Part shown: positions 1-39,900 of the stretch, piece after piece
How the letters are laid out: the number at the start of each line of letters is the position of its first letter
Numbering within the stretch: the first letter of the stretch is position 1
Origin: Cytobacillus oceanisediminis
GTDB taxonomy: Bacteria > Bacillota > Bacilli > Bacillales > Cytobacillaceae
NCBI RefSeq assembly: GCF_022811925.1
Contig: NZ_CP065511.1
Coordinates: forward strand, 4,581,501-4,645,500
Length of the DNA: 64,000 nucleotides
Reading direction: 5' to 3'
Translations under genes and position numbers: made by a program
Notes under the pieces: generated by a model
Databases searched by the model: none
Told to the model about the DNA's origin: nothing
Seen by the model: the letters and a program-made list of their open reading frames with translations, nothing else

Positions 1-1824
1 ATTGTCCCCTACAACAAGCATGTATGGAGTCTTTTGCATTTGCGCTTCACGGATCTTATAGCCGATTTTTTCATTACGGTCATCCAGCTCTACGCGGAAA
101 CCCTCTGCCTGAAGCTGCTCCTGGACTTGTTTTGCATAATTAAAGTGAATATCAGGAGAAACCGGAATGACCTGGACTTGAACTGGGGCAAGCCAAGTTG
201 GAAACGCTCCCTTATACTCTTCAATCAGGAATGCCACAAAACGCTCCATAGTGGAAACGACACCGCGGTGGATAACGACCGGACGATGAGGCTTTCCATC
301 TTCAGCTACATAAGTCAGGTCAAAACGTTCAGGAAGCAAGAAGTCCAGTTGGACAGTAGATAATGTCTCATCCTTGCCAAGCGCAGTTTTAACTTGAACA
401 TCCAATTTCGGACCGTAGAAAGCTGCTTCTCCTTCTGCCTCAAAATAATCAAGACCGATTTCATCCATGGCTTCTTTAAGCATTGCCTGTGCTTTTTCCC
501 ACATTTCATCATCATCAAAGTACTTCTCAGTATCCTGTGGATCTCTGTAGGAAAGACGGAATGAGTAGTCATTGATATCGAAGTCTTTATACACTTCAAG
601 AACCAGATGTACTACGCGCTTAAACTCTTCCTTAATCTGGTCAGGGCGGACAAAGATATGAGCATCGTTAAGAGTCATGCCGCGTACACGCTGAAGGCCG
701 GATAGTGCTCCTGACATTTCATAGCGGTGCATTGTTCCAAGCTCAGCAATACGGATTGGCAGTTCACGGTAGCTGTGGATGCCATTCTTATAGATCATCA
801 TATGATGCGGGCAATTCATTGGACGAAGAACAAGCTGTTCGTTATCCATTTCCATTACAGGGAACATGTCTTCCTGATAATGATCCCAATGGCCGGATGT
901 TTTATAAAGATCTACACTTCCCATGATCGGAGTATATACATGGTCATAGCCCAGTCTTTCTTCCTTGTCAACGATATAGCGCTCTATGTTGCGGCGGATT
1001 GTTGCCCCTTTTGGAAGCCACATCGGCAAGCCCTGTCCGACTTTTTGCGAATTCATGAACAAGTTAAGCTCTTTGCCGATTTTACGATGGTCACGCTCTT
1101 TCGCTTCCTCAAGGAGACGCAAATGCTCAGCCAGGTCTTCCTTCTTAAAGAAACCTGTTCCATAAATGCGCTGAAGCATCTTATTGTCACTGTCGCCTCT
1201 CCAGTAGGCGCCAGCAATACTTAATAATTTAAACTCTTTTAGTTTGCCAGTCGATGGAACGTGGACTCCGCGGCAGAGATCAAAGAATTCTCCCTGCTCA
1301 TAGATTGTCACTGTTTCATCTTCCGGGATGGCTTCAATCAGTTCAAGCTTGTATTCATCACCAATTTCCTTGTACATCTGAACCGCCTCATTACGGCTGA
1401 CTTCCTTGCGGACAATGTCAAGGTTTTCATTAATGATTTTCTTCATTTCTTTTTCAATCACAGGAAGGTCTTCTGGTGAAAGTGATTCTTCCAGGTCGAT
1501 GTCATAATAAAATCCGCCTTCAATGACAGGACCTACCCCAAGCTTTACATTTTTATATAAACGCTTGATTGCCTGCGCCATTAGATGGGCAGTACTGTGG
1601 CGAAGAACCTCCAGCGCATCGTTTGAGTCCGGTGTTACAATTTCAATAGCTCCATCCTTTTCGATTGGACGGCGAAGATCATACATTTCTCCATCCAGCT
1701 TGCCGGCAATTGCCTTTTTCTTCAGGCCCGGGCTGATCGAAGCTGCAATATCTTCTGTTGTCGTTCCCTTTGGAAACTCCTTTACAGCTCCATCTGGAAA
1801 CGAAACTTTAACAACTTCTGACAT
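1..1824 (-). CDS. thrS: threonyl-tRNA synthetase, 3' end beyond window
   Basis: Class II aminoacyl-tRNA synthetase that charges tRNA-Thr in the cytoplasm. The ATG at 1824 follows AAGGAGG, and the frame stays open to base 1, giving 608 codons against about 643 in the family, so the C-terminal end of the anticodon-binding domain is missing. The N terminus reads [16 protein letters not shown], typical of the TGS domain. The catalytic domain contains PMNCPHHM (around base 800), whose Cys is a zinc ligand that selects threonine. The gene has its own T-box leader and promoter upstream, and a copy of the interspersed repeat lies between that leader and the ribosome binding site. Identity is secure. 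Confidence 0.97.
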
Positions 1825-7160: not shown

Positions 7161-7189
7161 ATAAAAAGAGGTGTATTCAATACACCTCT
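7161..7189 (-). terminator. speD terminator
   Basis: AGAGGTGTATT and AATACACCTCT form an almost perfect hairpin, followed on the minus strand by TTTTTATTTTG. It lies just past the speD stop. Confidence 0.88.
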
Positions 7190-7213: not shown

Positions 7214-7588
7214 TTAAAGTACTTGAGCTTGTTTAACTTGAACTGGACCCATACCGCGAGGAATTTCGATATTCTCACGCGTTTGAGCTCCTAACGATTC
7301 TGCAATAAAGTCTGCAGCGATGTTAGGGTCAAGATCTCCACACGTATATACATCAATGCTGGCATAGCCATGCTCCGGGAAGCTGTGAATAGTTAAATGA
7401 GATTCAGAGATGATAACCACTCCGCTTACACCCTGTGGCGCAAATTTATGAAATGCAACCTCGCGAATTTCAGCACCAGATTTTAATGCAGCATTTACGA
7501 ATGTCTGCTCAATAAAATCCATATCATTTAACTTTTCAAAATCGCATCCCCAAAGTTCTGAGATTACGTGACGACCCATAGTTTCCAT
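7214..7588 (-). CDS. speD: S-adenosylmethionine decarboxylase proenzyme
   Basis: Makes decarboxylated SAM for spermidine synthesis. The 124-residue proenzyme is nearly the size of the Bacillus enzyme (126 aa). Self-cleavage is expected before Ser63 in [10 protein letters not shown], giving the pyruvoyl cofactor; His68 and Cys83 (DVYTCGD) fit the family's active-site residues. I chose the ATG at 7588 (METMGRH), as in B. subtilis; a TTG two codons upstream at 7594 is possible. The ribosome binding site AAAGGGGG is unusually G-rich and has an exact complement in the leader (see the leader entry). The gene lies directly downstream of gapB but has its own promoter. Confidence 0.97.
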
Positions 7589-7595
7589 ATTCAAA

Positions 7596-7740
7596 TTTCC
7601 CCCTTTAAACTTTTAAGCTATTAATTAATGAAATTCCAGATTTAAACTGGTCCATAACTACCACGGGGGAAAGTTAGTCCAGAGAGGTCCTAACCCTTTA
7701 AGTAGCTACCATACCAAAACCTCGGAGAAGTTCACGAGGA
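7596..7740 (-). promoter_or_regulatory. structured speD 5' leader with anti-Shine-Dalgarno
   Basis: The leader of about 140 nt folds on paper. CCTCG/CGAGG forms a first hairpin (7739-7720). A nested stem follows: TGGT (7716-7713) with ACCA (7651-7648), GTAGCTAC (7709-7702) with GTAGTTAT (7661-7654, two G-U pairs), and GTTAG (7694-7690) with CTAAC (7677-7673). Directly after CTAAC comes TTTCCCCC (7672-7665), exactly complementary to GGGGGAAA of the ribosome binding site (7603-7596). CCAG/CTGG (7650-7636) competes with the outer stem. This suggests translational control, perhaps a riboswitch. I do not match it to a class I know. Confidence 0.6.
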
Positions 7741-7742
7741 TT

Positions 7743-7771
7743 AGTATACTTTGTTTAATTTCTTTTTGCAA
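7743..7771 (-). promoter_or_regulatory. speD promoter
   Basis: On the minus strand TTGCAA (7771-7766) and TATACT (7748-7743) are 17 bp apart. The start point would be near 7736, at the beginning of the structured leader. Confidence 0.7.
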
Positions 7772-7842: not shown

Positions 7843-7871
7843 AAAAGGAGCCTGCCGGGGAATGGCAGGCT
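7843..7871 (-). terminator. gapB terminator
   Basis: AGCCTGCC and GGCAGGCT enclose a short loop, followed on the minus strand by CCTTTTATT, 40 bp past the gapB stop. Confidence 0.8.
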
Positions 7872-7911: not shown

Positions 7912-8943
7912 TTAACCAATTTTTACTGCAGATGCCTGGAAAAGTTCCTGTGCAACAAATTTTGTTAAGTCTACAACGCGGCAAGAATAGCCCCACTCAT
8001 TATCGTACCATGCAAGTACTTTCACTTTGCTGGTGCCGATTACCATTGTAGATAATCCATCAATGATGGCAGAGTGTTCATTTGTGTTGAAATCAATTGA
8101 AACCAATGGTTCGTCAGTAATATCAAGGATACCGTGCAGCGATCCGTGTGAAGCAGTTGCAAATGCCGCATTCACTTCTTCTATTGTAACGTCGCGCTTT
8201 AAATCCACCACGAGGTCAACTAAAGAAACGTTTGGCGTTGGGACACGGAGTGCCATTCCATGCAATTTGCCCTTTAAGTGAGGCAATACCAGCGACAAAG
8301 CTTTGGCGGCACCAGTGGAAGTCGGGATTATGGACTGTCCGCAAGCACGTGCCCGGCGTAAATCCTTGTGCGGGTTATCAATATTCTTTTGGTCGTTTGT
8401 ATATGCATGAACTGTGGTCATAAGTCCGTTTTCAATTCCAAATTGTTCATCAAGGACTTTTGCAACAGGTGCAAGGCAGTTTGTTGTACATGATGCATTT
8501 GAAATAATATCATGTTCTTCAATTTTTAATGCGCTTTCATTTACGCCCATAACAATAGTCACATCTTCATTTTTTCCAGGAGCAGTAAGAATTACTTTTT
8601 TAGCCCCGGCTTCAAGGTGAAGAGCTGCTTTATCACGTGAATTGAACTTTCCAGTAGCTTCAATGACGATATCGATGTTCAATTCTTTCCACGGAAGTTC
8701 TTCAGGATTCCGGTTGCTGACAAGCTGAACACTTTTGCCGTTCACTACAATAGCATTGTCTTCTGGAACAACACTTCCTTCGAATGGTCCGTGGTTTGTA
8801 TCATATTTAATTAAGTGTGCCAAAGTTTCAGCTGGATAACTTGCATTTATGGCAACTACTTCAAGATTTTCATCAAGGATGGCTTTTCTAAAAACCATTC
8901 GTCCAATTCTTCCAAAACCATTAATCGCTATTCTCGCCTTCAT
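7912..8943 (-). CDS. gapB: NADP-dependent glyceraldehyde-3-phosphate dehydrogenase (gluconeogenic)
   Basis: Interconverts glyceraldehyde-3-phosphate and 1,3-bisphosphoglycerate. The 343-residue protein has the Rossmann start GFGRIG (9-14) and the catalytic SCTTNC with Cys152. Position next to coaE and speD matches B. subtilis gapB, the gluconeogenic paralogue that prefers NADP, rather than the glycolytic gapA in the cggR operon. The ATG at 8943 follows GGAAGGGG. Two boxes matching the CcpN operator lie in the promoter region, consistent with repression during growth on glucose. NADP preference is inferred from family and context, not read from a motif. Confidence 0.93.
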   Translation of the reverse strand: MKARIAINGFGRIGRMVFRKAILDENLEVVAINASYPAETLAHLIKYDTNHGPFEGSVVPEDNAIVVNGKSVQLVSNRNPEELPWKELNIDIVIEATGKFNSRDKAALHLEAGAKKVILTAPGKNEDVTIVMGVNESALKIEEHDIISNASCTTNCLAPVAKVLDEQFGIENGLMTTVHAYTNDQKNIDNPHKDLRRARACGQSIIPTSTGAAKALSLVLPHLKGKLHGMALRVPTPNVSLVDLVVDLKRDVTIEEVNAAFATASHGSLHGILDITDEPLVSIDFNTNEHSAIIDGLSTMVIGTSKVKVLAWYDNEWGYSCRVVDLTKFVAQELFQASAVKIG

Positions 8944-39778: not shown

Positions 39779-39900
39779 CTGTCTAGCTCCAGCGCCTACC
39801 CCCTCGAGGTGAGGCCCCAGGATGGGGGTCATGCATACGTTGCCACAGGACGTGGCGTTCTTAGTCTGCGTTCATTCGTGGGCAAGGCGCTTCCACTTTA
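39779..39900 (-). repeat. interspersed repeat copy E, medium form, inverted
   Basis: On the plus strand ACTGTCTAGCTCCAGCGCC, TACCCCCTCGAGG, then CGTGGGCAAGGCGCTTCCAC. This is the family in reverse orientation with its own middle sequence. It lies between ytpI and the ytoI stop. Confidence 0.8.

Follow-up and report, generated by a model that had tools for sequence, protein, structure and literature searches.

The speD leader of Cytobacillus oceanisediminis raises the question of whether a messenger RNA can hide its own Shine-Dalgarno (SD) sequence and, if so, what signal would set it free. The window, that is, the whole stretch of 64,000 nucleotides that we analysed, carries this leader on the minus strand (7742-7586), between gapB (7912-8943) and speD. 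It is about 150 nt long and ends with the SD GGGGGAAA, followed by 7 nt and an ATG. The downstream protein is a SAM decarboxylase of the B. subtilis type (TIGR03330 SAM_DCase_Bsu, 137 bits for a cut-off of 75.65). A terminator-like hairpin (7871-7849) lies between gapB and the speD promoter, which suggests that speD is transcribed separately, and the transcript probably starts a few bases 3′ of the -10 box TATACT, to judge from the promoter-like site. Such sites are weak evidence alone, since two were found for a mean of 2.0 in shuffles; by eye, the -35 box TTGCAA recurs in relatives. No terminator was found in the window's speD leader, and a T-run of at least six bases occurs in the linker of 31 of 259 distinct leaders. 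The features of the locus are:

7214..7588, minus strand: speD, S-adenosylmethionine decarboxylase proenzyme (TIGR03330), likely start ATG 7588-7586
7766..7771, minus strand: -35 box TTGCAA of the speD promoter, promoter-like site with a 17-nt spacer
7743..7748, minus strand: -10 box TATACT of the same promoter-like site
7849..7871, minus strand: terminator-like hairpin in the interval between gapB and the speD promoter
7167..7189, minus strand: terminator-like hairpin 3′ of speD

The original prediction, made from this DNA alone, held that TTTCCCCC at 7672-7665 complements the speD ribosome binding site at 7603-7596 and lies next to a nested stem. Both strands are exactly where it placed them (minus strand) and form a perfect 8-base complement. 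The coordinates of the stem are exact as well: TGGT/ACCA (7716-7713 with 7651-7648) is the outer P2, GTAGCTAC/GTAGTTAT (7709-7702 with 7661-7654) is P2, which covaries, and GTTAG/CTAAC (7694-7690 with 7677-7673) is P3. Two elements had escaped it, a long-range helix, P1 (GUGAACUUCU, 7735-7726, with GGAAUUUCAU, 7637-7628), and an invariant GGG at 7696-7694. By comparison of relatives, P2 closes a near-invariant core formed by J2/3, P3 with its 12-nt loop and a C-rich J3/2, and P1 is usually present. In the window these elements are:

7726..7735, minus strand: P1, 5′ strand GUGAACUUCU, conserved in the family and near the 5′ end of the transcript
7713..7716, minus strand: outer P2, 5′ strand UGGU, with both-side changes
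7702..7709, minus strand: P2, 5′ strand GUAGCUAC, from covariation tests
7694..7701, minus strand: junction J2/3, UUAAAGG plus the first P3 base, including GGG 7696-7694
7690..7694, minus strand: P3, 5′ strand GUUAG, invariant in 80 of 80 leaders
7678..7689, minus strand: P3 loop of 12 nt, GACCUCUCUGGA, conserved save for 2-3 central bases
7673..7677, minus strand: P3, 3′ strand CUAAC, invariant in 80 of 80 leaders
7665..7672, minus strand: anti-SD UUUCCCCC, 5′ strand of the proposed pseudoknot
7654..7661, minus strand: P2, 3′ strand GUAGUUAU, from covariation tests
7648..7651, minus strand: outer P2, 3′ strand ACCA, with both-side changes
7628..7637, minus strand: P1, 3′ strand GGAAUUUCAU, from a swap test and a model-fitted alignment
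7596..7603, minus strand: speD SD GGGGGAAA, 3′ strand of the proposed pseudoknot

One part of the prediction did not survive. The CCAG/CTGG stem (7650-7647 with 7639-7636), said to compete with the outer pair, is present in the linker of just 9 of the 259 distinct leaders and hence lies outside the conserved device; all nine come from genomes of the window's own genus. Folding energy was abandoned as evidence because single-sequence folds were no better than those of shuffled sequences, either for the leader (z = +0.32) or for the core (z = +1.05). A helix abutting the SD (P4) reaches at least 7 bp in 26% of the 259 leaders and is clade-specific at best, since its mean length is barely above that of shuffles (5.3 compared with 4.7). 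In some clades (L159, L118, L165, L193 and others) a local helix, for example CUUUUACAA/UUGUAAAAG, adjoins the GGGGG of the SD and possibly replaces P1 in presenting it. A conserved upstream open reading frame was rejected: an SD-preceded upstream start codon exists in only 51 of 259 leaders, and the short MVAT frame of the window, present in 6 of 259, is not conserved.

These comparisons rest on leaders gathered by several routes. A search for SpeD across 151 genomes of the family gave matches in 121, and leaders were taken from 70 genomes (30 best loci and 40 picked across genera); the core was present in all 70 leaders fetched through the protein. An alignment of the window with 45 fetched leaders gave a covariance model, and a core-pattern scan of named genomes gave at least 118 stretches. 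Of the resulting 259 distinct leaders, the core-pattern scan supplied 91, and protein or model searches supplied the others. Tests on a tree cover the 193 that share a frame and have enough speD for a tree; among the 66 left out, 47 had a short speD or flank and 19 were junction variants.

Almost no variation is seen in a core of about 40 nt. Across the 193 leaders, 36 of 70 aligned columns reach at least 98% identity, while 28 four-fold degenerate speD sites of the same genes have a mean identity of 0.46 and a maximum of 0.76. The full core string is found in 60 of 61 distinct protein-anchored leaders, and GGG 7696-7694 in 259 of 259 distinct leaders (two of its three G lie within the extraction pattern). 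The invariance of P3, of part of the loop and of CCCC is partly by construction, because the scan and extraction patterns fix these bases; the P2 strands, GUG and the J2/3 bases lie outside both patterns, a J2/3 filter having been used only in choosing the 193 rows. Strongly conserved nucleotides that are predicted to be unpaired, and would suit a binding pocket, were thereby found, and the P3 loop is a candidate sensing element.

The predicted stem also carries compensatory changes in the speD leaders of relatives. The conserved secondary structure of the 5′ leader shows covariation, strongly in P2 and, in a model-fitted alignment, in P1 and outer P2. The usual P2, ACUAC/GUAGU, reads by eye UACACA/UGUGUA in L129, UGAUGU/ACAUCA in L133, AAUUAC/GUAAUU in L040 and CGCAAC/GUUGUG in L202. 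On the speD tree (193 leaders) 57 double changes that preserve pairing were counted among the nine P2 pairs, compared with a mean of 8.4 and a maximum of 18 in 200 runs of a null in which columns evolved independently along that tree. Not all slid controls were clean, with 50 double changes and 39% of cells paired at +1, and 14 double changes and 71% of cells paired at -3, for 57 and 78% in the true register. When 2278 column pairs were scored in an R-scape-like test, three stacked P2 pairs came out highest, with E of 0.10-0.19 over all column pairs; the top P2 pairs are significant only when the test is restricted to the nine helix pairs (E about 0.0004-0.0008), and the other six of the nine gave no standout signal in the all-pairs test.

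A further comparison used 80 diverse leaders aligned to the covariance model, an alignment that leans towards the model. In it 85.7% of cells pair (74.5% when shuffled) and 230 cells show a change on both sides (79 when shuffled), a number reached in 0 of 500 shuffles. Such changes fall in 19 of 26 pairs (15.7 when shuffled; 4 of 500 shuffles reach 19), including 4 of 4 outer P2 pairs, in which 69.9% of cells are paired, and 8 of 9 P1 pairs in this model-fitted alignment. When P1 strands were swapped between species (n=216 of the 259), own strands gave -10.4 kcal/mol compared with -8.7 for swapped ones, and beat them in 67% of cases; they beat shuffled strands (-7.0 kcal/mol) in 86%. P1 is more weakly supported than P2. 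Neither the pseudoknot nor P3 has covariation support, because both hardly vary.

The pairing of the SD is accordingly a matter of conservation and not of covariation, both strands being invariant. A CCCCC/GGGGG pairing could form in 259 of 259 distinct leaders, with at least five contiguous pairs in each and eight contiguous pairs between C tract and SD in 130. GGGGG lies within 24 nt of the assigned speD start in 258 of 259 leaders, the exception, L288, having its start assigned too far downstream. For comparison, 905 other ORFs, crudely called, were drawn from the window and from the 118 named-genome loci; 50 of them have GGGGG no more than 24 nt from the chosen start, or 77 if any candidate start is allowed. 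The SD duplex amounts to -12.9 kcal/mol by itself, and a GC-rich pseudoknot of 5-8 bp may be stable without ligand. Minimum-energy folds show an alternative partner for the C tract, GGG 7696-7694; one C tract with two alternative partners would have what a switch requires. In six of the 259 leaders (L116, L126, L203, L303, L316 and L280, the last from Exiguobacterium) the anti-SD is UUGCCCCC instead of UUUCCCCC, a variation uncompensated at the SD, since the base after GGGGG is A in all six.

The motif is widespread within one class. At E up to 0.001 the covariance model matches 244 of the 299 order genomes, which represent 94 of 117 genera. The class sample, in which genomes of the order are included, has matches in 114 of 250 genomes (56 of 106 genera); among the matches listed there is one per matching genome. 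In a sample of the phylum 4 of 199 genomes match, all four within class Bacilli. Bacillus tequilensis, B. halotolerans, B. paralicheniformis, Priestia, Metabacillus, Halobacillus, Planococcus, Exiguobacterium and an Alicyclobacillaceae bin are among those listed from the named-genome scan, and the leader of Cytobacillus firmus (L206) is almost identical to that of the window. Viral contigs gave 0 exact core-pattern matches, and no credible second copy was found in the window's own genome, where the next best match has E 4.2.

In the examined loci, of which some genomes give two, 313 of 314 motif copies run into a SpeD start, and the remaining copy (L296) is truncated by the end of its locus; a simpler neighbour check had left 3 of 144 copies unassigned, of which two were later assigned to speD and the third is L296. 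No copy was found before a gene other than speD among these 314. Fifty-five genomes of the order gave no match, and of 20 tested among them 15 had no SpeD match either, four had a SpeD 68-75% identical and one had a distant homologue (35%). Motif presence hence tracks speD in the order genomes tested, and the canonical core is missing at four SpeD genes (L134-L137, with 68-75% identity).

The original prediction could match the fold to no known class, and indeed no Rfam 15 family matches the leader. No model matched it at its gathering score, and 4227 models taken to E up to 10 gave no match in the window leader or in 19 divergent relatives. At this E the SAM-I covariance model found nothing in the leader, and neither did the SAM-II, SAM-V, SAM-III and preQ1 models in the window and the 19 relatives. 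In SAM-II/SAM-V and preQ1-II/III riboswitches the 3′ strand of the pseudoknot is the SD, as in the layout proposed for speD; in the latter, however, the anti-SD strand sits in the junction of a nested P2-P3 hairpin, and we know of no SAM-II/SAM-V or preQ1-II/III core that resembles the speD core. The autoregulatory ribosomal-protein leaders of Bacilli also have one gene per RNA, restriction to the class and a near-invariant core, but speD is the gene of a metabolic enzyme and no Rfam leader family matches its leader.

Because no Rfam family matches, the leader is not a spermidine riboswitch of the SAM-I type. That riboswitch is a rare and close SAM-I variant (13 examples) with a four-stem junction, of which a tested member terminates transcription; the report, from 2023, deems earlier claims of spermidine riboswitches unconvincing (PMC10853860). 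It resembles the speD leader in lying before polyamine genes of Gram-positives, speD included, with presumed feedback control (PMC10853860). It differs in that the window's leader has no SAM-I match or terminator, and in that the SD-pairing layout, far from rare, is found in most speD genes examined. Another polyamine-gene leader with a pseudoknot, which in the speD leader is putative, is the odc1 motif, which precedes ornithine decarboxylase and is built on a uORF (PMC8632094); by description, its gene and its construction set it apart.

The leader has nonetheless left a trace in published data. An Hfq co-immunoprecipitation in B. subtilis lists a peak of 79 nt (2966841-2966919; RPKM ratio 14.1) annotated as 'Unknown or speD leader region', in a table row that comes without structure, conservation or function in the part of the report seen (PMC3574147). 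Lying between gapB and speD, this peak is very probably the same leader. Beyond this row we found no description of a speD leader RNA in the portions of the literature available, and a word search for speD in the main texts of PMC11109978, PMC8632094, PMC6429828 and PMC2864571 returned nothing. On these searches the novelty of the class is probable, not certain.

Comparison shows a conserved architecture, association with a single gene and complementarity to the SD, and the switch-like layout proposed for translation of speD has strong support. We consider it practically certain that the leader is a conserved cis-regulatory RNA, and very likely that it controls translation by sequestering the SD. 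In the OFF state, pairing of the CCCCC of J3/2 with the GGGGG of the SD would produce a pseudoknot and so bury the ribosome-binding site; in the ON state, the GGG of J2/3 would hold the C tract, or the tract would be free. The invariant bases left unpaired in J2/3, J3/2 and the P3 loop would most likely form a pocket for spermidine, decarboxylated SAM (dcSAM) or SAM, and ligand binding would stabilise the pseudoknot, so that SpeD is repressed. In SAM-II and preQ1 riboswitches the ligand likewise stabilises a pseudoknot and represses the gene.

We prefer a metabolite sensor because unpaired bases are near-invariant throughout the class while P2 varies, invariant unpaired bases with a freely changing helix being the usual mark of an aptamer. 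The best explanation, which we hold to be probable, is a cis-acting 'speD motif' of class Bacilli that works as an SD-pseudoknot translational switch and probably as a metabolite riboswitch. Direct sensing of a metabolite by the leader seems rather likely on the same grounds; small-molecule binding and a polyamine- or SAM-linked ligand are both what we infer from comparing leaders. As SpeD diverts SAM to spermidine synthesis, repression by the end product spermidine or by the immediate product dcSAM would make sense, as would activation by SAM. Spermidine is abundant and binds RNA; given sensing, it is a fair candidate for the ligand that still falls somewhat short of likely. Only tentatively, therefore, would we speak of a new spermidine/dcSAM riboswitch class that represses speD translation through an SD pseudoknot and is the principal polyamine-pathway riboswitch of Bacilli.

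The serious rival to a metabolite sensor is a protein-binding autoregulatory leader, in which SpeD or another RNA-binding protein of Bacilli would bind the core and thereby lock the pseudoknot at the SD, much as ribosomal proteins act on the leaders of their own messages. It could leave much the same sequence trace, and we judge it unlikely without dismissing it. Association with one gene only is typical of such leaders, and the single-gene association of the motif, its lack of matches outside one class in our sample, its invariant loops and the way its presence tracks speD all agree with this reading. To our knowledge, though, SpeD has no RNA-binding role, and the four genomes with a SpeD 68-75% identical and no canonical core argue against SpeD as the binder, since they imply that SpeD does not require the core. 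A constitutive attenuator or a temperature-sensitive fold, which would lower or heat-tune SpeD translation without a specific signal, is improbable. The SD helix is strong alone (-12.9 kcal/mol for the duplex) and L134 keeps its SD pairing despite a decayed core, as such a device would predict, but a plain attenuator has no need for class-wide near-invariance of unpaired core bases, and thermosensors usually drift in sequence.

We give a similarly low probability to the leader being targeted by, or acting as, a C-rich small RNA with Hfq, its exposed UUUCCCCC pairing in trans. The co-precipitation of the 'Unknown or speD leader region' peak with B. subtilis Hfq favours this idea, yet in the same report known cis-acting leaders are also Hfq-associated (PMC3574147); moreover, the complementary GGGGG stands in cis beside the speD start in 259 of 259 distinct leaders, and no motif copy was found apart from speD among the 314. 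A diverged copy of a known class, for example the spermidine-sensing SAM-I variant, shares the pathway, and speD is among the genes of that variant (PMC10853860). We consider it scarcely credible given 0 matches in the leader among the 4227 Rfam models at E up to 10, the SD-pairing layout, the lack of a terminator in the window's leader and of a four-stem junction in the model. Chance complementarity, with which the unremarkable folding energy would agree, deserves as little credence, being refuted by comparison: every one of the 259 distinct leaders, which come from across the class, retains the pairing, and P2 covaries.

This candidate precedes the SAM decarboxylase gene at most of the speD loci examined in Bacilli, those of close B. 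subtilis relatives among them. Binding of spermidine, dcSAM or SAM by the leader would account for the way in which these bacteria balance methylation against the supply of polyamines; binding of a protein would make it an uncommon leader for a metabolic enzyme. Either way it is a near-invariant RNA of class Bacilli without a matching Rfam 15 model.

A natural variant deserves mention. L134, from the same genus as L133, has a decayed core and a different loop, and by eye it keeps P2 (UGUGUGAU/AUCAUACA), P3 (GGUAG/CUGCC), an ACCCCC strand and the GGGGG SD in unchanged order. The SD-pairing layout here seems, by eye, to have outlived the conserved core, and this leader may have lost or changed its signal.

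Some further observations were made along the way. In Bacillus sp. FJAT-42315 (L276) promoter, leader and speD start occur twice, 565 bp apart (333-362 and 898-927, plus strand), and the copies are identical across the compared stretch; either speD is duplicated in tandem or the assembly is at fault. A Bacillaceae-type core also precedes speD in records named Pseudomonas sp. ISL-84 (L255) and Paenibacillus sp. FSL R5-0490 (L216), whose organism names look wrong. Distant SpeD homologues (34-48% identity) lie inside open frames of about 420-506 codons (G101:C11:118074-118376, G126:C21:30319-30630 and G031:C1:1965081-1965419), hinting at SpeD fusions. Elsewhere in the window, 39814-39880 (minus strand) is a Bacillaceae-1 RNA (RF01690), with 72.5 bits for a gathering score of 35.
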